In this document: positions 1 through 18,570 of the stretch, in pieces
Layout: the number at the start of each line of letters is the position of its first letter
How positions within the stretch are numbered: the stretch's first letter is position 1
NCBI RefSeq assembly: GCF_000472665.1
Contig: NZ_AXAC01000018.1
Location: 1 to 64,000, forward strand
Source: Acetobacterium malicum subsp. dehalogenans DSM 11527
GTDB lineage: Bacteria; Bacillota; Clostridia; Eubacteriales; Eubacteriaceae
DNA: 64,000 nucleotides
Direction: 5' to 3'
Notes under the pieces: generated by a model
Told to the model about the DNA's origin: nothing
Databases searched by the model: none
The model's input: only the letters and a program-made list of their open reading frames with translations
Translations under genes and position numbers: made by a program

Positions 1-120
1 CTGCATCATTCCACAACGATCAATATCAAAGGCGACAGCTATCGGATCAGGGAAAAGAAAAAGGCTGGCTTCTATGATGTCAGCCTATATGAAAACGAAT
101 CGAACGATACTAATGGGTAA
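1..120 (+). CDS. istB: IstB-like ATPase of IS21 family, C-terminal fragment
   Basis: The window opens inside an open frame that ends with TAA at 118-120. The 39 visible residues contain the INIKGDSYRIREKKKAG stretch typical of the extreme C-terminus of IstB, the AAA+ helper ATPase of IS21-type transposons that works with the IstA transposase on target DNA. The ATPase core and istA would lie to the left and are not visible, so whether the gene is intact cannot be judged. Frame and family signature are seen; the function is from the family. Confidence 0.75.
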   Translation: MHHSTTINIKGDSYRIREKKKAGFYDVSLYENESNDTNG

Positions 121-162
121 TTATTACCGTTTATTTTGGGAAGTTTTAAAACGGTATTGACA
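1..162 (+). mobile_element. Right end of an IS21-family insertion sequence
   Basis: The istB tail is followed within about 40 bp by a terminal-repeat-like segment ending AAACGGTATTGACA at 162; the complement TGTCAATACCGTTT is the form commonly seen at IS21-type ends. A smaller internal inverted repeat (accgttt at 127-133, aaacggt at 149-155) is also present. The left end and any target duplication lie outside the window, so the exact boundary is inferred. Confidence 0.6.
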
Positions 163-248
163 ATATAAAGGCTTCGTTAAGATTCCTGGCTGGGTAATCG
201 TATCATAGGTGCAAAAATACTGGCAACACTAAATTCCGGATAAATAAA

Positions 249-288
249 AAAGCTCTGAACACCGTTTAACAGGGTGTTTCAGAGCTTT
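249..288 (-). terminator. Intrinsic terminator downstream of the HExxH gene
   Basis: Arms of about 15 bp (AAAGCTCTGAACACC at 249-263; GGTGTTTCAGAGCTTT at 273-288, one bulged T) enclose an 8-9 nt loop. Read on the minus strand the hairpin runs into a T-tract, so it should end the transcript of the gene at 380-1246. Confidence 0.75.
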
Positions 289-316
289 ATATTCTTATTT
301 GTCTAAGAACGCAAAA

Positions 317-377
317 AATAATACAATTTAGCGTTTATTGAATTACGCTAAATTGTATTATTACGCTAATTTGTATA
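317..377. repeat. Perfect 17-bp inverted repeat with an extra direct copy
   Basis: aataatacaatttagcg (317-333) and its exact complement (346-362) flank a 12-nt spacer. A further imperfect copy of the right arm, ttacgctaatttgtata, follows directly at 361-377. The very AT-rich arms with a GCG/CGC inner edge look more like a recombinase or protein binding site than a terminator. It lies between the 3' end of the HExxH gene and its terminator, next to the IS21 end. Confidence 0.6.
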
Positions 378-379
378 GG

Positions 380-1246
380 TTATCCCATATGAGAATTCCT
401 TAAAAAGTTATCATAACTTATATTAATAGTAGGATTAATTTTTTGGACACATTTAATTAATAATTTGAAGTCTTCTAAAAGAGTATGTGACAAAAACATA
501 TATTCCTCACATGTGGTTAGACAGAATTCTGATGCCTCTTTTAAATGATTAAAATAGGAAGACACGAATGCTAAATAATTTTCTTCTTTTATGGTTGGGA
601 AATCATTATTTACATATTTATGTGCAATAAAAGCTGTTCCTAAATCATAATAACTATCTGCATATTCATAGTATTTTTCTAGGGGAGCATTTGATATGTT
701 ATGTCTTTGTCCATACCAAGTAATTGTTTCCAATATGTTCTCTTCTGTTCCGCGTAAAAATCCTTTATCTTGTTTATAATTTTTATTTGAAATAGAATAT
801 GCATTATACTCATCAAGGAGCTTAAATGCCCATAATCCATAAGATAATTTGTTTTCATTAAACCATTCTTTTAATGTGTTCGGTAAGAGCAGTTGCGTTT
901 TAGCGTGTTCACATTCGTGCAGTACTGAGTTTTGAAAATATATCTTTTGAGCTTCGTCAATTGTATTTGCATTTAAATAATCAGCAATTCCAACGACAAT
1001 TGTTATAGGTTTCATATTAATATTACAATAGGCAGTTCTTATATTTGCTTCAGGATCGAGTTGAAATATCACCTGCTTTGGAGAAAAACTATACGTATTA
1101 AAAATATTTTCAGCTAGACTTTCTAACTGCTCACGAACCGAAAAACAAACAGACTTTTTCTTTTTGTGTTTTGAAAATAATGAAATAATAATATACCTCC
1201 AGATTTTAGATATTCTATTGAGAATTAAATTTTTGCATTTATTCAT
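380..1246 (-). CDS. HExxH zincin-like protein of unknown role
   Basis: A 288-aa product of unrecognised family. Residues 110-114 are HECEH, an HExxH zinc-binding signature, and a second acidic element LLDEYNAY (E146) lies about 32 residues later, the spacing of gluzincin-type metallopeptidases. A hydrophobic patch at about residues 16-25 followed by KHKKKK could be a membrane anchor or an overextended start. No good ribosome binding site supports the ATG at 1246, so an internal start is possible. It lies 228 nt downstream of the kinase/radical SAM/UDG cassette on the same strand and ahead of a terminator. Protease activity is inferred from the motif only. Confidence 0.6.
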   Translation of the reverse strand: MNKCKNLILNRISKIWRYIIISLFSKHKKKKSVCFSVREQLESLAENIFNTYSFSPKQVIFQLDPEANIRTAYCNINMKPITIVVGIADYLNANTIDEAQKIYFQNSVLHECEHAKTQLLLPNTLKEWFNENKLSYGLWAFKLLDEYNAYSISNKNYKQDKGFLRGTEENILETITWYGQRHNISNAPLEKYYEYADSYYDLGTAFIAHKYVNNDFPTIKEENYLAFVSSYFNHLKEASEFCLTTCEEYMFLSHTLLEDFKLLIKCVQKINPTINISYDNFLRNSHMG

Positions 1247-1474
1247 GTATAAAAGAATAGTATCAATAACAAAGCATCTGTAGAGCAGCAGTAACTACTT
1301 TAAATTCACCATTTTTGTTATCTAAAGACTAATTAAATGTGTTGCATTAAAATTGTTTTGATTGACACCTTATAGGTACTATATTTATGAATGCTAGAGC
1401 TTTATCTACCTCATAATCTTCTTTTGCTGCAAAAATTTCAAATAAAAAGAATTGTTCCTCGTCTGATCATAATA

Positions 1475-2026
1475 TCAAATCGTCGAAATAATAAGCTCTT
1501 TAACAGCATCAATGTATATCTCTTTATTCTTTCTTTTGTATATACTTATATAAGATGGATGATGAATTGGTAAAAAGCTGTAATCGCCGTGCTTATAAAG
1601 CTTATATTCATAGTCATTGAATTTATCAAATGTTACTTTTAAACTTTTTTCAACTGATTGGATTACATTATTGCCTAATAAAATAATAATTTTGGGATTC
1701 AGGAGCTCGATTTCTCTCTTAAGGTTTACAATGCAAAGATCCATTTCTTTTTTAGTCGGGTATCTTAGTTTGCCATTATTGCTTAATGGTAGACACTTAA
1801 CTACATTAGTTTTGTAGAACTTACACCCACATACCTCTGCTTCCATTTCACTAATAAGTTTTCCAGATCTAGTAGATGTTGATAAAGGGATTTCATCCAT
1901 GATGTTATCAACTTTTTTAGCAGAAAGGCCGACCCACATAACATCGCACTCCTCAACTTTATCTAATAACGGTCTTTGATTATTACACATGTTACACTTT
2001 TGGCAATTCATTATTTCCTTAATCAT
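1475..2026 (-). CDS. Fe-S uracil-DNA glycosylase superfamily protein, atypical motif A
   Basis: The 183-aa product has the layout of family 4 (SPO1-type) uracil-DNA glycosylases. Iron-sulfur cysteines are at C8/C11/C14 (CxxCxxC), C78 in TNVVKC and C97 in EMDLC. The LNPKIIILLG segment and a C-terminal HHPSY (motif 3 position) are present. The usual GEAPG motif that places the catalytic water is replaced by GLSAKK, so ordinary uracil excision is doubtful; a modified base, or binding without catalysis, is possible. The start overlaps the end of the radical SAM gene by 8 nt, with a strong AGGAGG site inside that gene. It is the third gene of a coupled operon. Confidence 0.75.
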   Translation of the reverse strand: MIKEIMNCQKCNMCNNQRPLLDKVEECDVMWVGLSAKKVDNIMDEIPLSTSTRSGKLISEMEAEVCGCKFYKTNVVKCLPLSNNGKLRYPTKKEMDLCIVNLKREIELLNPKIIILLGNNVIQSVEKSLKVTFDKFNDYEYKLYKHGDYSFLPIHHPSYISIYKRKNKEIYIDAVKELIISTI

Positions 2027-3353
2027 ATTGTCCTCCTAGCTTACTAGTTTTATAAATAAATTCATATAATACATTATCATCACATTCACTATAGTTTTTA
2101 GTTTGGATATTAAAATTGCCTCTATCAAGCAACGTAGAAAGCCTCTGGTTTTCTTGATATTTCAATTCAAATTGAGGTTCAACAAATTTATTAAATAATG
2201 CTGTTCCGTGATAGGGTCTAAACTGAAAAACACTTGTCCTAAAATTTCCATCCAAATTTAATGAATTTCTGTATATAGAAGTAGCAACTTCAAGGCTCAT
2301 TTCCATATCACACTGAGACTCTAATGGAAAGCCAAAGATAAAATATCCTTTGATATCAATTCCACATTTTAAAATTTTCTCTGAAGTATACTTTATCTCA
2401 TCTATAGTTCCTAATTTATTAATCATTTTCCTGATTTTATCAGAGCCTGATTCAATTCCTATAAATAATTCAATGCAGCCACTCTTTTTCATTTGAATGA
2501 GTAACTCTTCTGAGGCATTCTCAAATGTCTTTATATGTGCCATAGCTCTCCAGGATAAATTAAACATGCTGAATATTTCCGTAGCATCTCGTATCGAATT
2601 GGGACTTCTTAAAAACAAGTCATCTAATACTCTTATACATTGAACTGTTGGGTCTTCTGTAATTAGATCGCTGATTTCATTAGCTATTACGGCCTTTTCT
2701 TTTAATCTGATTTTGCTTTTTTCATTCAGACTTTTTGCCGCTCCACAAAAAGCACAATTATAAATGCAACCTCGTGATGTTATTATTGATTTTTCTTTCA
2801 AACCATAATAGTTTACCACAAAATATTCGTTAAGTAATTCTCTATTTAAAGGTAAAATATTAATATTTGATGGGAAATATTTTGATGCATTATCTACCTG
2901 GTATACTATACGAGTCTCACTTTGAAACAAAGGATCCTCAGAAACCATATCTTCAATGACATCACAAATGATCAAATCACCTTCCCCAATTATCACAATT
3001 AAATCATTATCAGTATGCCATTTAATTATATCTTTATAAATAAATTTCGAACACTGTCCACCAACAATTAATTTTGCATTTAATTTATATGATTCCAAAA
3101 TATTTTTAACAACTGGAATATTAACTGAGAAAATGTTAATACAAATGATATCAGGCTTAATATTATAAAGCTCTTGAATCACTTGAGAAACATTAAGACC
3201 TAATTGTATTGAATCAAGAATTATTACATCCCAATTTTTTTGTTGAATTTTTGTCGCCAAATAACCGAGTCCAAACGGTGGTAAATACTCATTACCCGCT
3301 ACCTCTGGCTCTAAACGGTTATAAATTGGCGAATTAATCAATACTACTTTCAT
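2019..3353 (-). CDS. B12-binding domain radical SAM enzyme
   Basis: The 444-aa protein has an N-terminal Rossmann-like cobalamin-binding region (about 1-140, with PPFGLGYLA at 25-33). The DS(I)QLG segment lacks the axial His of DxHxxG, as in many class B methylases. The radical SAM core follows with C196-x3-C200-x2-C203 for the 4Fe-4S cluster and IGIESGSD downstream. Such enzymes mostly methylate unactivated carbon, but the substrate is not evident. The chosen ATG overlaps the kinase stop as ATGA; the longer MGEYK start lacks support. Neighbours (dTMP-kinase-like, UDG-family) point to a nucleotide or nucleic acid substrate, which is inference. Confidence 0.85.
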   Translation of the reverse strand: MKVVLINSPIYNRLEPEVAGNEYLPPFGLGYLATKIQQKNWDVIILDSIQLGLNVSQVIQELYNIKPDIICINIFSVNIPVVKNILESYKLNAKLIVGGQCSKFIYKDIIKWHTDNDLIVIIGEGDLIICDVIEDMVSEDPLFQSETRIVYQVDNASKYFPSNINILPLNRELLNEYFVVNYYGLKEKSIITSRGCIYNCAFCGAAKSLNEKSKIRLKEKAVIANEISDLITEDPTVQCIRVLDDLFLRSPNSIRDATEIFSMFNLSWRAMAHIKTFENASEELLIQMKKSGCIELFIGIESGSDKIRKMINKLGTIDEIKYTSEKILKCGIDIKGYFIFGFPLESQCDMEMSLEVATSIYRNSLNLDGNFRTSVFQFRPYHGTALFNKFVEPQFELKYQENQRLSTLLDRGNFNIQTKNYSECDDNVLYEFIYKTSKLGGQYD

Positions 3354-3961
3354 TTTGTACTCTCCCAATCATTCAACGAATACGTCTTTAAGATGATATC
3401 CCCTAGCTTTTCTATAATCTTTGCTATGGGCTCTTCTGTATTTATATATTCTATTTTGTAACCGAGTTCCTCTAAATGATTACCCGCTTTAAATGATAAT
3501 TCGATTTCCCTTTTACTACTAAAATCTCTTTCGAATCTAGTCAAAGTTGATCTATCAGATAGCCTTTCATTGATTGTTTTTTCGTCCGCATAGACAATTA
3601 CTGATAAATCTGGCTTTAAAATCCCAGTATTTATCTTCATGACTTCATTCATACTCAAACCATCTAAAACCTGTAATATTAAAGAAGAAGCGATATATCT
3701 GTCACATAAAATAATGCCTCCCTTTTTAATGTATGGTAAAATCTCTGTTTTTATATGATTATGCCTATCTGCAGCAACCAAATTAGCTAGTATATATGAT
3801 GAATGATTTTCTTCAGACTCTCGTATGAACTTTCCAATTTCAGTCTCTGATGGCTCTTTTGTGATATAGATCTCCTTTTTTTTAGAGACCAAATATTTGG
3901 CAAGTTCATTAATGATTGTTGATTTACCAGATCCATTTGGTCCGTCAAAAGTGACAAACAT
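3350..3961 (-). CDS. Thymidylate-kinase-like P-loop nucleotide kinase
   Basis: A 203-aa kinase resembling dTMP kinase: P-loop GPNGSGKST at residues 7-15, ADRHNH at 64-69, the DRY motif at 87-89 and a lid-like RLSDRSTLTRFE region at 133-144. The start at 3961 is preceded by an AAGGGGGGAAT ribosome binding site; the longer frame to 4009 has none. The gene opens a three-gene operon with the radical SAM enzyme (ATGA overlap) and the UDG-family protein. Position in accessory DNA makes it an additional, specialised kinase rather than the housekeeping Tmk. The exact nucleotide is unknown. Confidence 0.8.
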   Translation of the reverse strand: MFVTFDGPNGSGKSTIINELAKYLVSKKKEIYITKEPSETEIGKFIRESEENHSSYILANLVAADRHNHIKTEILPYIKKGGIILCDRYIASSLILQVLDGLSMNEVMKINTGILKPDLSVIVYADEKTINERLSDRSTLTRFERDFSSKREIELSFKAGNHLEELGYKIEYINTEEPIAKIIEKLGDIILKTYSLNDWESTK

Positions 3962-4163
3962 ACTATTCCCCCCTTCAATAAAACCTCTTCGACATTGTTT
4001 TATACTCATTCTAGTTAAACAAAATTGTTATACCTATAAATTCTTTGATTTTCTATTTGAAGTTTTTCCTTTTTAATATCCCATATCTTGATTAAAAAAT
4101 CGGTATTCTATTCACATCTATACCTTACATTAAAACTTGAACAAAATTTACTGCTTGGCTAAA

Positions 4164-5141
4164 CTAATTAATCTGCTGACCTTCTGAATTCCAGTTGCCA
4201 TCCTTATTTTTTTCATATAATCTATAAGTTGTTCCTTGGATTTGAAAATAGTAATCCATTTGCCCACTCTTATAGTATTTCCTCGAATTATGGTTAACAC
4301 AATCTGAATACAATTGACATCTAATTGAACTTTTATTAAAGTCCGGATACTTTATAATTATTGAGTCAATAACTTCTTTCATAGTGAATTGACCATCACT
4401 ACTTTTTGAAAGAATTGTATCAACTGCATTCTTAACTACGGTCTTAATAGGTTCGTCACCATTCCAACGTACGCTGTTGCTTGAGCTATTTTTTTTTGAT
4501 TTTACCATTGAAGTTTTAGCTTCTTCTATTTCAGTACTGATATAATACTCGCCTGATTCATTGCTAAATACATCATATTTTAAGAAAGTGATATCTATAC
4601 CAAATTTGTTTAGGTAATAAATAATATCTTTTATTGTATTTGATATTTCTTCAGCAACAATAAATAATCGCAGCCGATTATTGAACGTAATTGAAATGCT
4701 TTCATCGACATCAGGATAAAATATTTTCTGGTGAATCTCTGATAATTCCATTCCTAAATATTCATTCTTTCTCTCGAAGTATTTCATTGTTATAATGTTT
4801 AATTGTTCATACGTCAGTTGCTCTGCCCACGCTGCATACTCCAAAATCTGTGCAATTACTTCTCTTGGCGCTTTTCCTTTCTTCAGTTCTACAATTACCA
4901 CATTTCCTTCAGCATCAATACCTATTAAATCCGGATACTTATATCGATCTTCATACACAGCAGTTACTTGTCTGCCAATCCAAATTATATTTAGATCCTC
5001 TTCATTATCTAAAAGGATATGCGGACTATTTTCTAACCAATTTTCAAAATCTCTCTCATAATCAACATCTTGTCGATCTGCCTTTTCTAATACGCCATCA
5101 GACAAATCATCTTTTTCATAGTTAAGCCTGTAAAGTGCCAT
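4164..5141 (-). CDS. NucS/DUF91-like PD-(D/E)XK nuclease with C-terminal extension
   Basis: The 325-aa protein has a nuclease core at about residues 30-115: D71 in PDLIGID, E85-L-K87 in VVIVELKK, and Q98 with EYAAW, fitting the PD-(D/E)XK/QxxxY pattern of the NucS/DUF91 group. The C-terminal part (about 225-315, KTVVKNAVDTILSKSS onward) resembles a small winged-helix or SAM-like DNA-binding module, but I do not recognise it. It lies 50 nt downstream of the 441-aa HTH gene, so it probably belongs to the same operon. Cleavage of foreign or damaged DNA is inferred. Confidence 0.7.
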   Translation of the reverse strand: MALYRLNYEKDDLSDGVLEKADRQDVDYERDFENWLENSPHILLDNEEDLNIIWIGRQVTAVYEDRYKYPDLIGIDAEGNVVIVELKKGKAPREVIAQILEYAAWAEQLTYEQLNIITMKYFERKNEYLGMELSEIHQKIFYPDVDESISITFNNRLRLFIVAEEISNTIKDIIYYLNKFGIDITFLKYDVFSNESGEYYISTEIEEAKTSMVKSKKNSSSNSVRWNGDEPIKTVVKNAVDTILSKSSDGQFTMKEVIDSIIIKYPDFNKSSIRCQLYSDCVNHNSRKYYKSGQMDYYFQIQGTTYRLYEKNKDGNWNSEGQQIN

Positions 5142-5191
5142 GTTTACTCCTTTTTACTCTAATTGAAGTGGTCAAGTAGTTTTCTGATATT

Positions 5192-6517
5192 CTATTTTTT
5201 AATTGCTTTCATTTCGTGAATGATATGACTCAATGGATTTAATTTATCAGCAGTCAATCTTACTAACTGAATATATTCTTCTATTAATTGAACAGTCTCA
5301 CTATCTTCAATCATTTCCAACTGAATTTCAAGATCATCAGCATATTTAAGCAGCTTCTCATGTTTGGACCAATTATCTGAATGTTCTTCAACGCTCTTAA
5401 CTAAAGCTTCTTTTCTCGCCTGTCTTATTTTTTCTTGCTTGACAAGGTTTTTTTCATATTCTTCATCTTGTAGTTCTTTTTGTAGCTGCGCATACTTTAC
5501 TGATTCTTTCTTACGATCTAGTTGGTAAAGAATTTCATTGTTGCAGCATTCTTCATAAACCTCAAGAATGATAGTCGAAATCTGTTTTTCTAAAGGATTT
5601 TCTTCAGAATCCACATATGAAAAAAAACGCTCCTGATTTTTTTGTGTATTATATCCGTATTGTGCGCCGAATAATTTCAAATCGAATGTAAGATTGCCAT
5701 CGAATACCGCTTCATATGATGGCCTTAAATCATGAATTTCTGTTTGGTCGGTCAAGCGTCGGCGCTTTATTTTACCCTCGTGCATTTCAAAAGTAACTTT
5801 AGTTTTTAATAGAGTTATGCTAATGTTGTCTTCTCTATCAGATTGATCTACTGTGAAATTTGCTTTTAGAATTCGGAATGATTTTATTATCGTGTCAATG
5901 ATTCTATACGAACGGCTTTGCAGCTTGTTGGAAACTTCAATCGGCAGTACCGGTTCATTGTTTCGATTTTTTATTTTTACATTTGATTTCTGGATCATAG
6001 TATAATCATCTCGAAAAGGATATTCTTTATCCCGCATATCACGGTATTCGAGTTCTAATTTGTGTTTAGAGATCAGATCATCATAGGTATTGATCCTGCC
6101 TGGAACAACTAACTTTTTACACCACTCAGAAAAAGTTTCGAGTGAGCCCGGGGTAAATAAATCAAATCCATGCATCGTTTCTAACTCTTCAATTGACAAA
6201 CCCTCTAGATCTAAAAGTTCAATCGATATTTTTTTGTCCTTTAAGGGAATTTCACCTGCATCATCAGTATTATCCTGACCATTTCTCAAAATTATTTCAA
6301 CATAAGGTGGAAGTGGAGGTCTTTCAGAAACAGGTTTTCCCGCTTTAACCTTTGCCCAGTAACCACTTGGTGGCAATGGAACGTTTAATGTCTTGCATCT
6401 TTTTCTTAAACCACTATCGGACATATCATATTTCTTTGCAACGGCTGTCATTGGCTCAGCCCAAACCTCCTCATACAGCGTTTTTCGCAGCTTCTTTATT
6501 TCCAGAGTTTCATTCAT
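5192..6517 (-). CDS. HTH-containing protein of unknown function
   Basis: The start at 6517 is set by GGAGGAAATAGT; the longer frame lacks a site. The 441-aa product opens with a helix-turn-helix-like segment (LYEEVWAEPMTAVAKKYDMS, then GLRKRCKTLNVPLPPSGYW) of a type seen in widely scattered hypothetical proteins. The rest is unrecognised; residues from about 335 to 390 are rich in E, K, Q and probably coiled coil. It overlaps the preceding gene by 8 nt and precedes the NucS-like nuclease, making a probable three-gene module. Confidence 0.6.
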   Translation of the reverse strand: MNETLEIKKLRKTLYEEVWAEPMTAVAKKYDMSDSGLRKRCKTLNVPLPPSGYWAKVKAGKPVSERPPLPPYVEIILRNGQDNTDDAGEIPLKDKKISIELLDLEGLSIEELETMHGFDLFTPGSLETFSEWCKKLVVPGRINTYDDLISKHKLELEYRDMRDKEYPFRDDYTMIQKSNVKIKNRNNEPVLPIEVSNKLQSRSYRIIDTIIKSFRILKANFTVDQSDREDNISITLLKTKVTFEMHEGKIKRRRLTDQTEIHDLRPSYEAVFDGNLTFDLKLFGAQYGYNTQKNQERFFSYVDSEENPLEKQISTIILEVYEECCNNEILYQLDRKKESVKYAQLQKELQDEEYEKNLVKQEKIRQARKEALVKSVEEHSDNWSKHEKLLKYADDLEIQLEMIEDSETVQLIEEYIQLVRLTADKLNPLSHIIHEMKAIKK

Positions 6518-8180
6518 TACTATTTCCTCCAGAACAAAACCCAAAACCACTACGTAGGAGATTGTCTACCAGTACTTCCAGTTCATCATCGTTAGCTATA
6601 TTCTTAGGTATCAAGTATCGTCGTTGATTATCATTAAACGTTACGCTGAGCATTGAGTAAAAGTCATCATATATTGGATATCTATACTTATTTAAATAAA
6701 ACACATCAGTCCCATCACTCATCGTTTTAGATTTTGGCCAATTACGGGTTTTTGGTGTAACATTTGTAATATTCAGACACACAATGGAGTTCTTGTACTC
6801 TATCAATGCCCCGAATATCTCACTTTGATTATAGTTAGTATCCCTTTTGCTTGCAAATAAAAGTGGAAAATCAATTGAAAACTGCAACCGAATTTTCCTT
6901 TGACGCAATTGGTCTTTTAATTTTATGATATCCTCTATTGTGCTGATATAACTTACTGGCTTTGTTCTCTGGTTTCCTGAGCCGTTTACAATTGCAATTT
7001 TCATATGTGAATACTTCTTCATTTTCTTTTCAAGTAACGAGCAACATGAAAAGAAAATTTCTTCATCAAATGATGCTGTTTTTAATGGTGACGTAAACTC
7101 GAGAATTTTTGGCGGTCCATGGTTTATAATTGAAGTATCAATTTTTTCAATAAGCGTAGTCATTTCCTTGATGTTTTGCCACACAGTGGAATTTTCCTGC
7201 GTAGAATTTACTCTCAAAATGTATTCTTCTTTTGGGGGATTTTTCAAAACGCCGTCTGTTGTTATAATGTGTTCGGTTGAACATACGATATCCTCTGGAT
7301 AATTTAGATTATTACTCGACACAGGCAGGAGGGCATTTACATTTTTTACAATACTCACTCTGCCTCGAGCGACACAAAGATTTACGTATTCAGGCCAGTA
7401 ATCATCATCATATACTTCGTTAAATAGCCACTCATGCATAACCAACATTTCAAGCTCACCACGTTTATTTTCCAGAAAAGGTCTAAATTTATTTTCATCA
7501 TAGATTCGTTCAATATCAAATGGGTTGTCATTATATCTATGATTATAATTATTAATTCGATATAACCTTCCCCTAAAATCGTCGCATTCAAGCTTTACAT
7601 AGTTTTCATAATATTCAAAAGCTTGATTAGAAGCAAATCTATACAAATTCACACCATATTTTTGATATGTTTCCCTAATCCAGGAAACAAGGTTGTTATC
7701 GAGATGCACTAATTCAGAAATACACGGCGGCTCTGAAGAATACTTTTTTATCTCTCTCATTAATATTGAAATTTCATTGACATACTCATTCAAATTAACA
7801 TTTTTTAATTTATATTTTTCACAAAATGATTCTGATAAAATATTAAAATCTTGCTCTGAATAATAAAAATTGAAATAAGGATCATTACATAACCAATTAT
7901 CAACTGCCCTATTTATTCTGAATTTATGCTTTAAATAAAAATCTACGATAAATTCTACACTCTTTGGGTATTTATCTTCTGTTTCTTTTACTATTTTATC
8001 TACGATCTGTTTTTGCTTTATCTCCTGGGCGTCACATGTCTCAAGTGTCAAATATTCATTAAAATAAGACATTACGTATTTCATAATCGCTGACATGTTT
8101 TCGGATTGTTTTGTATAATCAAATTCATTAATTTTGTTGGTCCTTTTTAATTTACCAATGTATTCCTCGATAGTTAACAT
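6510..8180 (-). CDS. Unknown 556-aa accessory protein
   Basis: No family is recognised. The product is soluble, rich in Y, N, D and E, with no clear P-loop, zinc or nuclease motif. The ATG at 8180 has an AGGAGGTG site; a GTG at 8189 would overlap that site. The stop overlaps the start of the HTH gene by 8 nt (ATGAATGA), indicating coupled translation. Together with the HTH protein and the DUF91-like nuclease it looks like one operon inserted between other defence genes. AT-rich codon use matches its neighbours, not the core genes to the right. Confidence 0.55.
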   Translation of the reverse strand: MLTIEEYIGKLKRTNKINEFDYTKQSENMSAIMKYVMSYFNEYLTLETCDAQEIKQKQIVDKIVKETEDKYPKSVEFIVDFYLKHKFRINRAVDNWLCNDPYFNFYYSEQDFNILSESFCEKYKLKNVNLNEYVNEISILMREIKKYSSEPPCISELVHLDNNLVSWIRETYQKYGVNLYRFASNQAFEYYENYVKLECDDFRGRLYRINNYNHRYNDNPFDIERIYDENKFRPFLENKRGELEMLVMHEWLFNEVYDDDYWPEYVNLCVARGRVSIVKNVNALLPVSSNNLNYPEDIVCSTEHIITTDGVLKNPPKEEYILRVNSTQENSTVWQNIKEMTTLIEKIDTSIINHGPPKILEFTSPLKTASFDEEIFFSCCSLLEKKMKKYSHMKIAIVNGSGNQRTKPVSYISTIEDIIKLKDQLRQRKIRLQFSIDFPLLFASKRDTNYNQSEIFGALIEYKNSIVCLNITNVTPKTRNWPKSKTMSDGTDVFYLNKYRYPIYDDFYSMLSVTFNDNQRRYLIPKNIANDDELEVLVDNLLRSGFGFCSGGNSNE

Positions 8181-8243
8181 TACAGACACCTCCTGAAAAA
8201 TAAATCCTACAAATCAATTAGTCATTAGCCTAAATAAATTCAG

Positions 8244-9059
8244 TTAAATTTCAATTATTTCTTTGATCTTCTCTGGGCAAATTGATGTAGATGATTCAAT
8301 ATATGCAATTACATCACTTGAATTATAAGATGAAAATTCAGGGATTCTACTGATTGCATTTTCTATCATCCATTTTTTTATAATCATTGCTTTATCTTCT
8401 TGGCTATAAAAATCACAATTATTAATTTCAAACGATATGAGCTGAATTTGCTCTAAATCGGCTATAAAGTTAACAATATAGCGTTTACTTTCCTCGATCC
8501 ATTTATGCTCAATATCCCAAAGGACGGTATTTAATTTAGAAATATTCATCAAAAATTCGGGTCTTTGATAGTCATTTCTTGATTGCTTATCTTTGCAAAA
8601 GTATCCGTTAATTGAATAGTCTGAATAGATTTTACGCGATATTTTTAGTAATACTTCTTCTGATTCATTTAAATCATGTCTACCCTGATACTTATGATAA
8701 TCAATATCATATTATTCTTTATTAAAATAGAGTTCCTTATTTTTTAAATCAAAACGAACATCAATGCTCGCTAAAAACATTTTTAATTCTGTTTCTTTTG
8801 TTAATGCCCATTGCAAACTATTTATGCCATTTTGTTTTATGCAATCACATTTATTTAAACTCGAAGTATAATGCATAACAACAAATTTTTGACAAAAAAT
8901 ATTTTTCGATTTAATTAAATCATCATTTAAACTCCAAAAATATTCGGAATCTTTATTATACATTTCAATAAGCGTTCTTATTGTCGTATTGAAGAAATTC
9001 TCTAAAAATATTTTAGCTGAATCTTCGGTTCTAATATCAAAAACCAATAGAATCATCAC
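8244..9059 (-). pseudogene. Unknown gene split by one in-frame TAA
   Basis: Two open stretches (8712-9059 and 8244-8711) are in the same frame and separated only by TAA at 8712-8714. The 52 codons between this stop and the first candidate internal start stay open (YDIDYHKYQGRHDL... to YQRPEFL) and look coding. The full protein would be about 270 aa, with HYTSSLNKCDCIKQNGI near residue 73, a pattern reminiscent of HxTs...IxxNGI segments in several unknown or ADP-ribosyltransferase-like proteins; this is weak. Either a nonsense mutation or a sequencing error explains it. It lies between the Wadjet operon and the unknown module. Confidence 0.65.
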
Positions 9060-9239
9060 CTTTCAAATCAAAATTTAGGTCTAATTAGTCAAATATGCCA
9101 TAATTGTGCGATTATCGACATTTAATGTCAGTTCACAATATATTGCTCCATTTAAGCATGACGGATTAATAAAAATATCTATTCAAAGTGTTACAAAATT
9201 ACTGACCTTTGCATATCTAATATCAAAGTATTTATTTAG

Positions 9240-10475
9240 TTAATCTTTTAAGCTTGCGGATTGCATCAGATCTAAACTGATTATTTCCTGTTCAAGTTTG
9301 ACGTTTTGATGCAGCATATACTGGATTGTATCTGCATATAGGATCATATTCTTTAATTCTTGTAATCTCACAACATCGGTTTTTGTTAATTTCTGAAGAC
9401 AACTGCTGTATTGAGGCTGAGACAATTCAAATTGAGACATACAAAATATTTTGAAATCAACGCCGGTGACGCCACACAGGTTATGATGTATCCAGAAGCC
9501 ACCCGCATCAATATCCCCAAAATGCAAAAATTGCAAGTCTGGATTATCAGCATCAACCTTCTTTATAAAATCTCGTTGATGACGATTTGCATAGCCGCCT
9601 AGAAAAAAAATAACGGTATCATCAGCGGAATATCGCAAATAAGAAGTTCTATTTTCAATCGTCATAAATTTGGGGGCATCAATACAGATTTTTTCTATGC
9701 GATTAAAGCTGTCTGTATTGAGTTCAATCCCTTCAGGCAAAAGACTTAAATCCAATTCTTTTCCATTAATAATCAGTCGGCAATTTCCTTTAATGCTGAA
9801 TTTAAGTGGTTCTTTAATTATAGCGTAATTAACCAAGATTTCATCAATCTGTTGATCAGATTCACATGGCATATTTTTATATTTTCGAATCATCAGGCAG
9901 GCAGGCTTAAGCGTGTTTTCTTCAAAATATTTAGAATCACCATATACCTTCATAGAGACTTCGCGTACATAAAGGTCGGTCTGATTATTCTCGATAAAAG
10001 CGACAGCATCCAATATTTTAGGAATCAGCTCATAGTTGGCTGGTATTTTATTTGTTTCAGTTAATTGCTTCTGTAATCTATCACACTCCTGTCTGCAAAT
10101 ATCTGATGCATTCCGGTACTGCTCAATAGTAGCAAGTAGTACGTCTTTCTTTACTCGTTTTGGTATAAAAGAAAACTCTTTATGCAAATAATCTTCAACC
10201 GGGTCGATTTGATCATCAACCAGATAAATGGATATTATGGATGTGCCGAATTTCTCACGCTCATAAGTCAAAAATCCCAGTTGAGCGAGGTTTTCAACTT
10301 CATCATTAATCGCTGAGATGATATCGTAGTCACCGTCGTTTGCGTAATACTTTTTGTAGAGCATTTCAGGTTTAACCTGAGTTCTCTTAGTGACCTTATT
10401 GGTGTTACTATCTTTTTTACTATGCCGATATTTATCCACCAATATCGTCAGTATTTTTTCATCCCACTTGTTCAT
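9240..10475 (-). CDS. jetD: Wadjet protein JetD, Toprim-type nuclease
   Basis: The 411-aa protein carries the JetD C-terminal (DUF2220) Toprim-like domain, with FGDIDAGG at residues 319-326 supplying the DxD metal ligands, and an N-terminal DNA-binding arm region. In Wadjet, JetD is the topoisomerase VI-like nuclease that cuts plasmid DNA once the JetABC SMC motor has extruded it. The ATG at 10475 lies inside the jetC 3' end (17-nt overlap) and is preceded by an AAGGA; the longer frame to 10523 is unlikely. Last gene of jetABCD. Confidence 0.9.
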   Translation of the reverse strand: MNKWDEKILTILVDKYRHSKKDSNTNKVTKRTQVKPEMLYKKYYANDGDYDIISAINDEVENLAQLGFLTYEREKFGTSIISIYLVDDQIDPVEDYLHKEFSFIPKRVKKDVLLATIEQYRNASDICRQECDRLQKQLTETNKIPANYELIPKILDAVAFIENNQTDLYVREVSMKVYGDSKYFEENTLKPACLMIRKYKNMPCESDQQIDEILVNYAIIKEPLKFSIKGNCRLIINGKELDLSLLPEGIELNTDSFNRIEKICIDAPKFMTIENRTSYLRYSADDTVIFFLGGYANRHQRDFIKKVDADNPDLQFLHFGDIDAGGFWIHHNLCGVTGVDFKIFCMSQFELSQPQYSSCLQKLTKTDVVRLQELKNMILYADTIQYMLHQNVKLEQEIISLDLMQSASLKD

Positions 10476-13400
10476 AAGCCACATCCTTGAATTTAATAAT
10501 ACCAATTTCAATTGAATCAGCACTTGTTTTTAATACCGGTAGAATGACATTACATTCGTTCCCGATGAGTTCCGTTTTATCCGGAGCACAAAATACCATC
10601 TGGAGCTTTTGTGATTTCATAAAATCAAGCATGATCTTGACATTTAAAGCGTCCATCTTCGCAAATGGCTCGTCGATAAACACCAGTCTCGTTGAATTGA
10701 GCTTATTATTATAAACCATGAGAATTGCCGATAATAAAATCAGCAAATACGGAATTTGTACTTCAGCACCGGAGTTATAGCCAGACTGTCTTGACAATTT
10801 TGCTTTGGTTAAAACATCATTGGTAATCAGAATCTCATAAGTCATGTAATTGCGATAATCTGCGTATTTTTCTATTTTTTCCTTATCATTGCTAGCAATT
10901 ATCTGGTTAATAATGCTATGGATATCCTTTTCCAGCTCAGCACCCATTTCGTCTGTATAGGTTGCAGATTCGGGCAGGTATAATGTAGTTTGATTACTGG
11001 TAAGTCCTAGAGCTTCACGCTCTTTTAGAAACCTGGCGTATTCAAGAATTTTTTCATATGATGATCCATCTTTGACAAACTTTACTTCAAACTCATATTT
11101 CGAAGTAAATCTTAGTCTTGAAAGTTCGGCATTGATGAGTTTCAAATCATCTTGTGCGCTATCGCAGGACTTTAAGACAGTCAGAACAAATTCGTTTTTA
11201 AAGATTTCTTCATAGCGTTTCGTCTGCACCGCCAGCTTTGATTTGATCTCCTGGAAGTCATCGATCCAAATCTGATTCTTTCTTTCCTCATAAGCAGCAT
11301 ACTGATCCGCACCCGTTTCTAGTCGGTTATCTTCCGGTCTTTTTAGATTGTAGGTACATTGGGCATTATATAGCCTTTTGTCTACTTCTATTAGTTCTCG
11401 TTCTCGACGACTTCGGTCTATATAGGGACCACTATCACCGGTTTTCCCATTAAGAATCCATTTATCACAACTATTTACAGCAGCTTCATATAATTCATAA
11501 TTCTGTTGCTGATAGATTGCCATCTGTCTCTCACATTCTTCAAAATCAGTCATCCCATTACTCTTTTTCTTAGCATTTACCTCAATTTGAGTTTTCATTG
11601 CTGCTTGTGACTGGTAAATATCGTGACGTGAATTTTCATTGGACTCACGTTTTTCTTCATACTGATTTCGAAGTTGTATTAACGCCATATATTCCTGATT
11701 GTGCTGCTGAGCGTTTTCTAATTGTTTAAGTTCCTCATAAGCTTCATTATATCGCTTGAAAATATCATTGTATTTTTGGTTTGCATCGTAATTATATTTA
11801 TCAAAAAACTTCAATGCGGTTTCCAAATAACTTTTAGCACTTTCGTATTGGCGTTTTCTTCCAAACAATTCATTAATTTCCTGGCTGATCAATTGCAACT
11901 TTTTTTCTGCTCGCACCCGGTTTAAGTCGATGGTTTCCTGGCCTAAGCTGTAAGACCGTATTCGGTTGAAGTCAAGAAAGTAACTGCTCATTGAAGCAGA
12001 TACTCGGCCTTCCTTCGAAAGAGCGTCTTCGTAATTTCGAACTTCGTTAATATCTACTGCATGAATACGTCCCAGCTGGTAGTCAAAGTACCGTTTGGCC
12101 ACTGGATTAATGATCTCCAGATAATGAACGACTGAGTTTTCCTCAGGTATTCGCACGTGCTTATTCATCAGCAACTTTGTATTAAATAAACGCGCGTACT
12201 TGTTTCTGGTCCGGTTTAATACATCATCGGCTATATTGTAATATTCCGGTTCAACAAGGATGGTATATCGTCTCTGTCCGAGAAAGGATTCAATAGCATC
12301 GCGCCAGTCTTCATCAATAAGTGTTTTTACATACTCACAGGCAAATTTCGCTTCAGATTGAATGCCATTATTTTTAAAGACTTTGTTTATTTCCGATTTT
12401 AAAGTAACAAAGTCAGGAATGTCTGAAAAAACAGTCTTTTTGGCTTTATAATCGTCTATTAACCGCTGTTGCCTGTTTTGTTCCTGATTATTTTTTTCAA
12501 TCTGAACTTCAAATTTATTAATATTTATCATTAATGTATCTCGTTCGGCGCTGATCACATTAAAAAAAGAATCAACGGCAACCTGCTTCTGAGCGGCAGT
12601 ATGCTGATCAGATGTTAGTGACGATAAAACACCATGTTTAGAGATATCAATATTGCGATTTTTAAGCCACTCAATCAATTCAATCAACTTTTGCTGGAAA
12701 GTCGCTAACCGATCTTTTTCATACAATAAACTGTCTTTCTGGGTGGCCAGCTGACTGATATAGTCCTGCGCTGCGTCAATTGCTTTAGTACAATCCATTT
12801 CCTTTAAACTATCCTTGACCTTCTCAAGCTTGTTTCTGAGATCGTTGTCTTCAGCGTCAATTAGCTTCATGCGGTCTTCATCTACCACCAACTGCTGGCT
12901 GGCTACTTTAATTAAATGTTTCGCCTCATCTATGACTGCTTGGGTTTCAAGCATTTTGATATGCGCCAGTTTAACATCATCAGAAAAGATTCGGTCTTTG
13001 ATATTCTGCAGACTTTCATATAAGGCACTAATATTTTCGAGTTCCTTAATTTCATCATCGATTTTTTCAAAGGTCATCTTCAATGAATCGATGTTGTTAT
13101 TGGCTTCGATTAATTTAGAGAAATCCACAATTTTGGGTTCAAGTACACTTTCTCTAATAAACTGATCAATTTTGGAATTCGGATCATAGGACATAATACT
13201 GCGCAGTTTCCGGCGAAATGGTTTAAGTTGTGATTCACTGAGTCTCAAACCGGTTCGCTGCATAAACTTGACGGTTCCCTCGGTGGCATCCAGTAACTTG
13301 AGACTATATTTTTTCTGAAGTTCCTTACCGTTATAGGACATAAGGTCGTCATCTTCGACATAGGTGTGTTCTAAATCACAGAGATTAACTTCTTCAATAA

Positions 13401-13779
13401 TATACCGGTTTGTTTTAGTATTGTTGGTAAGGTTAGTTTCAATAACGGTACCAAGGACGAAACTTTTCTCCATCTCTTCTTCAAACATCTCCAGTACAAT
13501 ATGCGTGATAATCGTTGGCCATTGATCGGCAGGCCGGATACAAGTACCTGATGTAGCATCTTTAAAACCTCGAGTATAGGAAGGAAGTGTTCGACTGCCG
13601 GTATTTTCCGTCGATTTATTAAACACCGTATCTCCATATAACGCATATTTGATAGCATCCAGTAACACAGATTTTCCGTTTCCGTTTTGGCCGGCAATTA
13701 ATGTAAAGTCCCCAATCGGCATCGTGACATTGTTAAAACCATACCAATTAATCAGCCGAACGGCTTTTAACTTAATCAT
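10459..13779 (-). CDS. jetC: Wadjet protein JetC, SMC-type ATPase
   Basis: An 1106-aa SMC/MukB-like ATPase: Walker A GQNGNGKS at residues 30-37, two long coiled-coil arms with a hinge-like middle, a signature-like SGYNSGAEVQIPY near the C-terminal head, and Walker B with VFIDEPF at about 1033-1039. It is the motor of the Wadjet condensin, which extrudes circular plasmid DNA for JetD cleavage. Its ATG overlaps the jetB stop as ATGA. Length and both heads appear intact, with no internal stop. Confidence 0.93.
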   Translation of the reverse strand: MIKLKAVRLINWYGFNNVTMPIGDFTLIAGQNGNGKSVLLDAIKYALYGDTVFNKSTENTGSRTLPSYTRGFKDATSGTCIRPADQWPTIITHIVLEMFEEEMEKSFVLGTVIETNLTNNTKTNRYIIEEVNLCDLEHTYVEDDDLMSYNGKELQKKYSLKLLDATEGTVKFMQRTGLRLSESQLKPFRRKLRSIMSYDPNSKIDQFIRESVLEPKIVDFSKLIEANNNIDSLKMTFEKIDDEIKELENISALYESLQNIKDRIFSDDVKLAHIKMLETQAVIDEAKHLIKVASQQLVVDEDRMKLIDAEDNDLRNKLEKVKDSLKEMDCTKAIDAAQDYISQLATQKDSLLYEKDRLATFQQKLIELIEWLKNRNIDISKHGVLSSLTSDQHTAAQKQVAVDSFFNVISAERDTLMININKFEVQIEKNNQEQNRQQRLIDDYKAKKTVFSDIPDFVTLKSEINKVFKNNGIQSEAKFACEYVKTLIDEDWRDAIESFLGQRRYTILVEPEYYNIADDVLNRTRNKYARLFNTKLLMNKHVRIPEENSVVHYLEIINPVAKRYFDYQLGRIHAVDINEVRNYEDALSKEGRVSASMSSYFLDFNRIRSYSLGQETIDLNRVRAEKKLQLISQEINELFGRKRQYESAKSYLETALKFFDKYNYDANQKYNDIFKRYNEAYEELKQLENAQQHNQEYMALIQLRNQYEEKRESNENSRHDIYQSQAAMKTQIEVNAKKKSNGMTDFEECERQMAIYQQQNYELYEAAVNSCDKWILNGKTGDSGPYIDRSRRERELIEVDKRLYNAQCTYNLKRPEDNRLETGADQYAAYEERKNQIWIDDFQEIKSKLAVQTKRYEEIFKNEFVLTVLKSCDSAQDDLKLINAELSRLRFTSKYEFEVKFVKDGSSYEKILEYARFLKEREALGLTSNQTTLYLPESATYTDEMGAELEKDIHSIINQIIASNDKEKIEKYADYRNYMTYEILITNDVLTKAKLSRQSGYNSGAEVQIPYLLILLSAILMVYNNKLNSTRLVFIDEPFAKMDALNVKIMLDFMKSQKLQMVFCAPDKTELIGNECNVILPVLKTSADSIEIGIIKFKDVAYEQVG

Positions 13780-14447
13780 TCTTCCTCCATATCTTCGATC
13801 TGTTCTTCATCTATGTATTCATCCTGATCGTCGCATAGACTATCTTCGCTGTCTTCGTATGACGGCACATCACTTAAATATTGTGCTGATAATTCTTTGA
13901 ACTGGACAATGTCCCATCCAAATTGGAGTGACGGATACAAAGTAATAATGGCTTCTTCTGTCTTATCCTTCTCATCGAAATTGATCAAACTGTATTTTTT
14001 AAACAGTGCCAGAGCTGTCGACAATTTGCGTTTATCGATATCAACAGCATAAGCTTTTATTTTGTCAATCAGATCGCCGCGCATAACCAGATTTTCTTCG
14101 TTATATCCGAGGTTTTCCAAATACACAGACCAGAGCACTAATAGCAGATGGTACTGTTCTGCTGTAAAAGTGACGACATTGCTTCTTTTAAGTCCTGTGA
14201 CTTCAAGATCCGCTTCATAAGGTTTAAGCATAGCAATCTTGACATTTGTATCAACTAGCACATCAAAACCGGCCATTCTTAAATAGTCAGAAATATCCTG
14301 CCTGTTCGATTCTCTAGCGATAAATTTATAAAGCCGTTCGTCCTTTTCACCTACAATAAACGTCGAATCTAGGAGTTTCCGAACACACCGTTTAAATAAA
14401 TCGATATTATCTTCTTTAATTGAAATATCAAGTTTAATATCACTCAT
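13776..14447 (-). CDS. jetB: Wadjet protein JetB, MukE-like subunit
   Basis: The 223-aa product has the position, size and winged-helix character of JetB (MukE/kite-like, DUF4194-type), the subunit that with JetA closes the JetC heads. A strongly acidic tail (DQDEYIDEEQIEDMEEE) ends the protein. It overlaps jetA by 8 nt and jetC by 4 nt, so translation is coupled along the operon. The assignment rests mainly on gene order next to unmistakable jetC and jetD. Confidence 0.85.
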   Translation of the reverse strand: MSDIKLDISIKEDNIDLFKRCVRKLLDSTFIVGEKDERLYKFIARESNRQDISDYLRMAGFDVLVDTNVKIAMLKPYEADLEVTGLKRSNVVTFTAEQYHLLLVLWSVYLENLGYNEENLVMRGDLIDKIKAYAVDIDKRKLSTALALFKKYSLINFDEKDKTEEAIITLYPSLQFGWDIVQFKELSAQYLSDVPSYEDSEDSLCDDQDEYIDEEQIEDMEEE

Positions 14448-15855
14448 TTTCGTCAGTCTTCCTTTTTACACAAATATCGCTGATACTAGCCAAATCGGTT
14501 TCAATTATTCCACCCAAAAAATTAACGCTATAAGGGAAATTGTTTGAATTTGAATAGATAATACTGGATGCCATCATCAATACATCCTCCTTGGTTTTCA
14601 TGCTTATCTCGCCGGTGGTAAGGCAAGCCCGATTCTGAAGCAAGTGCTCAAAATAATGGGCAACTTTGTTAACGCTATATCGGTCCTTGTTTTCTAGAAC
14701 ATCCTGCGTCATTTTTATTTTTTCTTCCTCAGTTAAAATAGAAGGCATAATTGCCCCGCGTTTGATATTGGGATTGCGCTTGCGTCTTCTCTCAATAGAT
14801 TTATGCCCAATGTACTGGTAAGACAAAAGGTGGTATCCTTCAGATATTTGAGCAAGTGCCCTTTGTCTGTTTTCCGTATCCATATCTTTTAAGCACATTA
14901 ACAGGTCATTTAAGTAGGTTTGAATATTGGTATTATTACTCAAAACCATTAGCATTCGCGTTGAATAGAGGTTGTAATAGTTATTGATTTTTTTATCGAT
15001 ATAATCCATTTCGTGAGCATAGTCATGATAAATAAAATCTCTGATGACATCAAATTGGCTATCGATTACCGTCTTAGCTTGATGCGAGTCAACATTTTTC
15101 AGACTCTCATATTCGCTGATCATTTTGCCATACACGTCTATATTAACGACATGTCTTAGCATTTTTTCTATTTCAGCAATGTATCCAGGAATCAGGCCAT
15201 CCCTTTTGATAAAAAAGTAATCCTTGAAAAAGATATTCAGCATTTCGTCTTTGATGAAAAACTGGCCAAATTTGTTGACCTCTGAAATATCAATGATGAT
15301 TCGCATGATCGTCCGTATACTGTCTTTTAAACTAAATAGTTCGCTTTTCAAATCAGAAACACTATCAAGAAGCGGTAATAGGATATTAGAATAAGGTCGA
15401 ATGGTCCGACCATGATCACGTTCTAAGGCTGATTTTAAAGTGTCATAAATTGAAAAGATGTGATTGGTCAAGTCGCCGCGGGTTTCGCGTTTGAAAATGC
15501 GTTCAATCGCATCGATCAACTTTCGACAATAGGGCGTCACAGTCGCAATATTATCACCATTTCGCCCGATTTCCGGTTGAGAGATCCAGCTGCAATCCCG
15601 AAAATATTTTAAAATTGCACTGGCGTTCTCACTTTCGGTCCGATTGTTATTGAAGATGTCATCCTCCTGATCAACAGAAATGTTACTGTTTCGCAGATAA
15701 AGGATCAGGCTATCTCTGACATCTTGTTCATAAAGTAGTGACACTTGCTTTGATGTCTCGATGATCTTTAAAATACACTCATAATAAAGTCTCCGATTTT
15801 TACAGCATAGCGGATTAAAGAAACGGTCATATTGTGCATCTTCAAATAAAAACAT
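14440..15855 (-). CDS. jetA: Wadjet protein JetA, kleisin-like subunit
   Basis: First gene of the operon; 471 aa, the kleisin (MukF-like) subunit linking the JetC heads. It begins MFLFEDAQYDRFF, a JetA-like N-terminus, and is mostly helical. It seems closer to the JetA form of the non-type-I Wadjet systems (DUF5716-like) than to the DUF3375 form; subtype is from memory and uncertain. The ATG at 15855 follows AGAAAGGGGAAAC; the longer frame to 15921 has no site. The operon promoter should lie in the AT-rich 15.9-16.1 kb stretch. Confidence 0.85.
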   Translation of the reverse strand: MFLFEDAQYDRFFNPLCCKNRRLYYECILKIIETSKQVSLLYEQDVRDSLILYLRNSNISVDQEDDIFNNNRTESENASAILKYFRDCSWISQPEIGRNGDNIATVTPYCRKLIDAIERIFKRETRGDLTNHIFSIYDTLKSALERDHGRTIRPYSNILLPLLDSVSDLKSELFSLKDSIRTIMRIIIDISEVNKFGQFFIKDEMLNIFFKDYFFIKRDGLIPGYIAEIEKMLRHVVNIDVYGKMISEYESLKNVDSHQAKTVIDSQFDVIRDFIYHDYAHEMDYIDKKINNYYNLYSTRMLMVLSNNTNIQTYLNDLLMCLKDMDTENRQRALAQISEGYHLLSYQYIGHKSIERRRKRNPNIKRGAIMPSILTEEEKIKMTQDVLENKDRYSVNKVAHYFEHLLQNRACLTTGEISMKTKEDVLMMASSIIYSNSNNFPYSVNFLGGIIETDLASISDICVKRKTDENE

Positions 15856-16111
15856 TGTTTCCCCTTTCTCTGAATGTATATCAAAAATAATGAGCGCACT
15901 TTTTCTCTTTAAATATCCCATAATTTAAAGGCCAAAACATAATTTAAAGCTTCTATTAAATGCATATTATATGCTTAAATCGCAACTCTAGCTTTCTTTC
16001 ACAGCTTTTGAATTAGCAATTTTCAAATTGTATTCTTTTATATTATACTTAATTTTAAGCTTGATTGCATTCGATTTCAAGGTATTAATTGATTTTTGGG
16101 CAAAAATAATA

Positions 16112-16139
16112 ACAGCAAATCATAATGATGATTCGCTGT
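16112..16139 (-). terminator. Hairpin, probable terminator of the yolD side
   Basis: ACAGCAAATCAT pairs with ATGATTCGCTGT (one mismatch) around a 4-nt loop. On the minus strand it is followed by TATTATTTTTG, so it could end transcripts coming from the yolD or Abi remnant side. Confidence 0.55.
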
Positions 16140-16208
16140 AAATATTTAGATTATATATATTTATTTTTCTTTACACATTTATGAGTATTTAATCTTTTTT
16201 TCAAACCC

Positions 16209-16316
16209 TTAGTTTTCTTTGGAAAGTCTACTGTTCGCAAAATCGACATCATCTACAATGAGTTCTCTAGATTTAAGTTTTTCTACTTGCTCGTCTAAAG
16301 TATGAAAAGGTTTCAA
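16209..16316 (-). pseudogene. N-terminal remnant of an Abi (AbiD/AbiF, Abi_2) gene
   Basis: A TTG at 16314-16316 with an AGGGGAGG site upstream opens a 35-codon frame ending TAA at 16209. Its product (KPFHTLDEQVEKLKSRELI then VDDVDFA) matches the conserved start of Abi_2 family abortive-infection proteins, whose usual length is about 300 aa. The conserved NYY region that should follow is gone and no downstream continuation is visible, so this is a deletion remnant. Confidence 0.65.
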
Positions 16317-18438: not shown

Positions 18439-18570
18439 ACTCACAGCCCCTTTTTTCACTTATTTTAGGTTATATATTATATCACATTCTGATTCTAACT
18501 TACACTGATAAGAGGGGGCATTTTCTTAATGCCATCCCATATGAAAATATTAATTCAACACCTTATCCTA

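Follow-up and report, generated by a model that had tools for sequence, protein, structure and literature searches.

The window analysed here, a stretch of 64,000 nucleotides of Acetobacterium malicum subsp. dehalogenans DSM 11527 (contig NZ_AXAC01000018.1, positions 1 to 64,000), carries a cassette of three genes on the minus strand. In the direction of transcription they encode a thymidylate-kinase-like kinase (TMK; 3350..3961, 203 aa; Pfam PF02223 Thymidylate_kin, 6.7e-30), a radical SAM enzyme with a B12-binding domain (rSAM; 2019..3353, 444 aa; Pfam Radical_SAM, 6.1e-15, and B12-binding, 6.4e-12) and a protein of the uracil-DNA glycosylase (UDG) superfamily with a family-4-like fold (1475..2026, 183 aa; Pfam UDG, 7.1e-18). 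As read from the sequence, the TMK and rSAM genes overlap by 4 nt (ATGA) and the rSAM and UDG genes by 8 nt, so that coordinates and Pfam matches bear out the three overlapping genes described in the first-pass annotation of this DNA. A genome of the same genus (G035) holds the same trio, with 98.5, 99.3 and 99.5% identity for TMK, rSAM and UDG, inside a block common to both (1419..8180; blastn, 95% nucleotide identity). Beyond this block, a blastn comparison of window 1-20000 with 12 kb of G035 shows flanks that differ, except that 77 nt match at window positions 300-376. Because the trio is present in G035 and the association recurs across many phyla, we consider it more than a chance arrangement.

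This recurrence was followed from the rSAM side, and few searches from the UDG side bear on it. In a profile scan of genome contigs the best 80 of 418 relatives were taken; 56 of these (L017-L072) were assigned to the rSAM family, and 24 more distant B12 rSAMs (L073-L096), beside which no partner gene was found, were set aside. Together with nine viral loci (L097-L105) this gives 65 family loci; among the viral matches L097-L152, L106 was viewed and left uncounted, and L107-L152 lie outside the partner counts. The 65 loci are not all independent, as the TMKs of L097 and L098 are identical, those of L033 and L100 are near-identical and L099 is phage SF3. The first-pass annotation had made its case hang on conserved co-occurrence of the three families, and such co-conservation is found: a glycosylase-fold gene stands beside the rSAM in 61 of the 65 loci and a TMK in 53, in at least eight phyla as judged from record titles. 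No glycosylase-fold gene was seen in L053, L071, L072 and L101, the last of which begins at the rSAM. The order TMK-rSAM-UDG of the window returns in a member of the Vallitaleaceae (L018), in alphaproteobacteria (L030, L031, L040) and on a phage contig (L189), whose full trio stands outside the 65-locus count, as does a contig of G397 that ends inside an rSAM directly before a UDG.

According to their partners the loci fall into four types. Type (i), to which the window belongs, comprises 12 loci from (by title) Bacillota, Bacteroidota, Campylobacterota, cyanobacteria, Cryosericota and Falkowbacteria, and its UDG-like gene adjoins the rSAM in all 12 (head to head in L023). In the four proteobacterial loci of type (ii) a shorter UDG-like gene follows the rSAM directly, and three of them have the TMK in the order TMK-rSAM-UDG-like, the remaining one (L070) having a broken rSAM. 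Type (iii) is the largest with 48 loci, 39 from genomes (38 actinobacterial by title, with L050 called Melainabacteria) and nine viral, and type (iv) consists of L053, for which no partner was found. The presence of the TMK varies. Beside the rSAM of Bacteroidota none was found in five of six loci, and the sixth (L024) has its TMK, the sole PF02223 match of that genome, on the opposite strand; in the Bacteroidota the step would thus fall to another kinase, unless the substrate comes already phosphorylated. The three-gene unit proposed in the first-pass annotation stands as far as the pairing of rSAM and glycosylase is concerned, but of the three genes it is the TMK that is most often missing outside the actinobacterial group. 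Two candidate variants were rejected: an Azospirillum locus (L012) with rSAM, kinase and NUDIX, whose kinase belongs to the GHMP kinases and which has a glycosyltransferase in its vicinity, and a Paraclostridium locus (L013) with no TMK annotated nearby. No rSAM occurs within the fetched flanks of four weaker UDG matches (L191-L194).

The third protein of the window is closest in fold and sequence to family-4 UDGs and UdgX. It matches the family-4 UDG 4zbx by phmmer (6.4e-11), and its predicted structure (pLDDT 85) has the UDG fold, again with 4zbx as the best Foldseek match (1.1e-11); against the NCBIfam model UDG_fam4 it scores 57.9 bits, below the cut-off of 125.3. By sequence it has cysteines C8, C11, C14, C78 and C97, and it retains N74 and H156-P157-S158, which together with G33 are invariant also in the alphaproteobacterial UDG-like form, a form that is without the N-terminal cysteine region. 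The assignment to the UDG family in the first-pass annotation is thus upheld by Pfam, with the reservation that the acidic motif A of family 4 is missing.

In type (iii) this protein is replaced. An unannotated protein of about 270 aa stands ahead of the rSAM in 45 of the 48 loci, including that of Streptomyces phage SF3, accompanied in the group by a TMK (47/48) and a NUDIX hydrolase (35/48). A model built, like the alignment, from 39 of the 45 sequences (pLDDT 95) predicts a full-length HhH-GPD fold of the OGG1/AlkA type. All 50 matches listed by Foldseek are OGG1- or AlkA-type glycosylases, with OGG1 and Archaeoglobus fulgidus AlkA as top PDB entries, and VIA-align of the model against these 50 listed entries gives Z values of 18.8-20.1 over 252-260 residues. 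The sequence profile likewise finds AlkA-type enzymes at 1e-8, and no HhH-GPD Pfam match was obtained in the two actinobacterial members scanned. A UDG-like identity for this protein was considered and discarded, since profile comparison gave it 0.1% probability and the model is HhH-GPD. Asp216 and Trp196 are present in 39 of 39 rows; by eye we take the former to be the presumed catalytic Asp of AlkA and the latter to occupy the position of the OGG1 lysine, and with a Trp at that position in every row a monofunctional glycosylase is expected. The partner thus resembles AlkA/OGG1-type enzymes in its full predicted fold as well as in this presumed catalytic residue. Of the 45 HhH loci, 40 have the HhH gene running 11-68 nt into the rSAM gene (with start codons chosen by script). 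The NUDIX gene of SF3 (L099:10072-10503; the same gene in L015) matches the PADLOC candidate PDC-S07 (2.6e-10), a similarity for which the NUDIX domain probably accounts.

The rSAM is the element around which these partners change. By its domain matches the window protein has the architecture of a cobalamin-dependent radical SAM enzyme, a radical SAM core with an N-terminal B12-binding domain, and its CxxxCxxC motif (C196/C200/C203) is invariant in the five rows of alignment A3. In a quick tree search (LG+G4; 12 of the 24 outgroup loci included, without L070 and without 12 sequences that are near-copies or fragments) the cassette rSAMs form one clade against 12 other B12 rSAMs (SH-aLRT 99). 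Inside this clade the FeS-UDG, alphaproteobacterial-UDG and HhH types each lie on one side of a branch (100, 99 and 99), and the alphaproteobacterial UDG-type rSAMs share a branch with the HhH type (99). The rSAM tree is therefore split by glycosylase type, which means that the rSAM was kept through one or more changes of the glycosylase fold.

For the kinase, the match to dTMP kinase TIGR00041 (107 bits) exceeds the cut-off of 83.25, and the window TMK represents a cassette-specific subtype with TKEPS in place of TREPGG and an altered AYQG/R stretch. TREPGG and AYQG, the acceptor motifs of canonical dTMP kinases, are not what the cassette TMKs carry: EPG[GA] is found in 0 of 54 of them as compared to 9 of 18 other rows, E/Q-P-S/T in 50 of 54 and an AYQG-like stretch in three of 54. 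The window genome holds a second PF02223 match elsewhere (G000:C15); in Chryseolinea sp. the TMK adjacent to the cassette is the sole match. The nearest rows to the window TMK in a tree (the remnant L017, the short L069, L183 and the short host sequence L163 being left out) are other cassette TMKs. As a separate observation, a cassette-like TMK adjoins a different radical SAM gene and an exonuclease-like gene, both identified by eye, at L197:6146-6814 and 7382-8560 (G084:C33), a locus kept out of the counts; the subtype may thus serve another system.

The cassette is rare. Among genomes of the window's order the rSAM was found in 2 of 67 at 1e-25; in a sample of the window's phylum it was found in 1 of 398 at 1e-38, namely the window's own, and in the phylum of Chryseolinea sp. 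(G074) in 1 of 395, G074 itself (up to four candidates scored per genome in both samples). Of window 1-20000, Proteiniclasticum aestuarii shares only positions 1488-3622 (80% nucleotide identity), which cover the UDG, the rSAM and the last part of the TMK; a degraded remnant is all that it has of the kinase gene. Carriers include the integrase-bearing Streptomyces phage SF3 (L099), three Streptomyces plasmids and other IMG/VR contigs, besides L189, a phage contig with terminase and portal genes, and many Streptomyces, Micromonospora, Nocardia and relatives. Scans of viral contigs with the single window UDG and rSAM sequences returned no relative; queries with alignments did find them. From the phage and plasmid carriage, the identity of 80% confined to the cassette and the rarity, we conclude that the cassette is mobile.

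The surroundings justify the "defence-rich" island of the first-pass annotation. A complete Wadjet system JetABCD (JetA, JetB, JetC, JetD; 9240..15921, minus strand) lies outside the cassette, about 5 kb upstream of the TMK start, and a gene for a PDC-S11-like protein with a DUF7669 domain (4164..5141, minus strand) adjoins the cassette within the block shared with G035. Elsewhere, the regulator ahead of the cassette in L025 matches RmrA at 1.3e-57 and also CapP/CapH, and a PDC-S41/Nhi/AbiO-like helicase gene lies upstream in L017. This context, along with the carriage on phages and plasmids, points to conflict with mobile elements. Upstream of the rSAM in L019, L020, L021, L022, L024 and L025 we observed a fused XRE-ImmA/IrrE regulator and a PIN-like gene (L019 scanned with Pfam, the remaining loci judged by resemblance), the PIN-like gene overlapping the rSAM start by 1-4 nt in L020, L021, L022 and L024. 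Proteins with two membrane stretches (by eye) are encoded directly before the cassette at L019:5736-6539, L025:7201-7992 and L189:811-1842; they look alike by eye and were considered as a shared fourth component, an idea that was dropped because phmmer joins L019 with L025 only. In the window itself, two overlapping genes of no confident family (5192-6550 and 6510-8189, minus strand) lie with the cassette inside the 95%-identical block and are possibly another unnamed system. An orphan of 288 aa at 380-1246 (minus strand) with a HECEH zinc-peptidase-like motif has no match in Pfam, NCBIfam, PADLOC or PHROGs, and G035 carries a different 2.6-kb piece at its position.

Several known systems come close to this arrangement. 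Prokaryotic viperins are radical SAM enzymes that make an antiviral nucleotide and often lie beside a kinase. In contrast to them, the window enzyme is a B12-domain rSAM whose only PADLOC match is PDC-M51A (E up to 0.1), and the dedicated DNA glycosylase of the cassette suggests DNA rather than RNA as the target. With PDC-M51, PADLOC has already flagged a pairing of rSAM and TMK as a defence candidate, its models A and B matching the cassette rSAM and TMK. The window rSAM scores 42 bits to PDC-M51A (versus 87 to NCBIfam ApyD) and seven other cassette rSAMs 16.5-54.6 bits, the SF3 rSAM is unmatched at 0.01 and an unrelated Azospirillum rSAM reaches 45.7 bits; five cassette TMKs score 38-48 bits to PDC-M51B. 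Judged from these scores it looks like a distant match at the superfamily level, and PADLOC has no match for the window UDG-like protein (E up to 0.1) or the SF3 HhH protein (0.01). The accessible part of PMC9252829 makes no mention of PDC. Among biosynthetic enzymes, according to the accessible parts of the papers, OxsB of oxetanocin A biosynthesis is a B12 rSAM acting on dAMP, dADP and dATP, and AlsB of albucidin biosynthesis acts on dAMP (PMC13331322, PMC7074753). Both are like the cassette rSAM in the B12-domain radical SAM type and give bioactive nucleosides, but in the same sources it is a phosphohydrolase or another rSAM that works with them in the oxs and als sets, whereas the cassette has a kinase and a glycosylase. 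In base-excision restriction of the PabI type, as far as the available text describes it, a glycosylase has an immune role and modification protects against excision (PMC10273834); the partner genes of the cassette look, in contrast, like nucleotide makers. By title and abstract opening, in a literature coverage outside of which most subscription journals lie, we found no rSAM-TMK-glycosylase system. To us the architecture appears new, and the swap of the third gene is a new observation of this analysis; for the function we offer a proposal.

From the observed gene content, overlaps, co-conservation from the rSAM side, predicted folds, fold swap, mobility and defence context, we infer a pathway whose substrate, product, incorporation into DNA and direction of effect (shield or weapon) would be as follows. 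The rSAM would alter a pyrimidine deoxynucleotide, most likely the base of deoxythymidine monophosphate (dTMP) or deoxyuridine monophosphate (dUMP); a concrete guess would be C-methylation of the thymine methyl group, yielding 5-ethyl-dUMP. The dedicated TMK-like enzyme, with acceptor motifs unlike those of host TMKs, would make the diphosphate of the rSAM product, and host kinases would then provide the triphosphate. This analogue would be built into replicating DNA, above all that of phages, and would harm it. The glycosylase (UDG-like in the window, HhH-GPD in Actinobacteria) would remove the analogue from host DNA, and in Actinobacteria the NUDIX hydrolase would probably clean the nucleotide pool. 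The presence of two unrelated glycosylase folds beside one rSAM family points to a base that is put into DNA and removed, and argues that what both folds share is to recognise a DNA base or to take it out, as opposed to some special trait of one fold. By its anatomy, an rSAM tied to a DNA-glycosylase fold, usually with a nucleotide kinase and in Actinobacteria often with a NUDIX hydrolase, the gene set would most plausibly make, activate and remove a single modified nucleotide, and from the context an anti-phage role is probable. That the cassette is a mobile, probably antiviral module making a modified pyrimidine deoxynucleotide, with glycosylase and NUDIX protecting the self, has in our judgement about an even chance of being right. 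The first-pass annotation had already imagined a modified thymidine-type nucleotide that is phosphorylated and met in DNA by a glycosylase; this idea is partly supported: the HhH-GPD swap and the NUDIX gene strengthen it, and in five of the six Bacteroidota loci no TMK was found beside the rSAM.

A number of findings weigh against this analogue-and-shield proposal. The window UDG-like protein has GLSA where the acidic family-4 motif A reads GEAPG (GLSA in 11 and GLSS in one of 12 aligned FeS-type UDGs) and may therefore bind without cutting. The broad-specificity family-5 UDGs (UDGb) likewise have no polar residue in motif A, and by this analogy activity on a larger pyrimidine is as possible for the UDG-like protein as binding without cutting. 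The alphaproteobacterial form reaches only 20.5 and 18.3 bits to Pfam UDG, below the cut-off of 24.3 (hhalign 92.5%). Furthermore, an intact TMK lies nearby in only three of the 12 FeS-UDG loci (L018, L029, L024), with a degraded remnant in one, and the free TMK tree splits the cassette rows, placing the alphaproteobacterial ones by deoxynucleoside-kinase-like rows (support 19) and L029 by host TMKs (81). In favour of the proposal, on the other hand, a single group of the cassette TMKs and L176 is not rejected by the approximately unbiased (AU) test (p 0.733), and the tree constrained in this way gains 7.4 log-likelihood units, long branches limiting this comparison. A UDG relative with 38% identity to the window UDG lies on a fecal phage-like contig (L016:675-1154, MT836204), where the 11.9 kb hold no rSAM or TMK, the contig starting 675 nt before the UDG-like gene. 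The HhH protein is known here from beside the rSAM only, its one place of search. Lastly, there is no specific tie to the nucleotide-modifying OxsB, which the A3 rSAM profile did not find at 1e-3 (AprD4, 9ccb, TM_1862 and TokK were found) and to which the window rSAM aligns by phmmer at 0.0022.

The same genes could also serve as a weapon, with the self-made pyrimidine analogue put as a Trojan base into new phage DNA and excised there by the glycosylase, so that abasic sites destroy the phage genome. The glycosylase is indeed the most constant partner of the rSAM (61/65), looks translationally coupled to it by the overlaps in 40 of 45 HhH loci and keeps the Asp assigned by eye as catalytic in 39 of 39 rows. 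However, unless infection alone triggered the synthesis, the host's own DNA would suffer the same attack, no common sensor gene was noticed in the neighbourhoods viewed (no systematic search being made), and a NUDIX gene in 35 of 48 HhH loci fits pool cleaning better; we therefore regard this reading as rather unlikely. If it were true, the immune system would itself place in the invading DNA the mark that it attacks, where otherwise a difference already present would have to be recognised. Phage thymine hypermodification pathways combine a 5-hydroxymethyldeoxyuridine kinase with glycosylase-fold base-flipping transferases, and by this precedent the cassette could rebuild thymine in DNA, the glycosylase-fold protein flipping the base and transferring a group without excision. 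The location on phages and the UDG-like proteins lacking the acidic motif A would agree with this, but the HhH version retains the presumed catalytic Asp and no recurring dUMP hydroxymethylase or transferase was noticed in the neighbourhoods viewed, again short of a systematic search, which makes hypermodification improbable.

A product aimed at competing bacteria instead of phages has to be considered too, since Streptomyces make nucleoside antibiotics, an antibacterial product is thus possible, and this counts against an antiviral one. The cassette would then be a compact set for biosynthesis and self-resistance, for which the many carriers in Streptomyces, Micromonospora, Nocardia and relatives and the precedent of OxsB and AlsB, as seen in the accessible text, would speak. 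Such an antibiotic appears to us still more improbable, given that the cassette is also found in Bacteroidota, Campylobacterota, cyanobacteria, Candidatus Falkowbacteria, phages and plasmids, has Wadjet and PDC-S11 as neighbours in the window and an RmrA-like regulator next to it in L025, and that no recurring exporter gene was noticed (no systematic search was made). Spore photoproduct lyase, whose radical SAM chemistry is directed at thymine in DNA, offers a precedent for an rSAM that modifies a base directly within DNA; the glycosylase-fold protein would then flip the base for it, and the kinase would be an accessory. The tie of the rSAM to the glycosylase, more constant than that to the TMK, would fit, but the TMK (53 of 65 loci) and the NUDIX gene (35 of 48 HhH loci) point to free nucleotides, and we give direct action on DNA very little credence.

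If the proposed synthesis of an analogue with a matching glycosylase is true, the cassette would be, to our knowledge, the first in which enzymatic synthesis of a DNA base analogue and the matching removal enzyme are encoded in one operon, with base excision serving it as shield or weapon. It would also open a route to a new deoxynucleotide as an antiviral lead, to a new B12 radical SAM reaction and to glycosylases of altered specificity.

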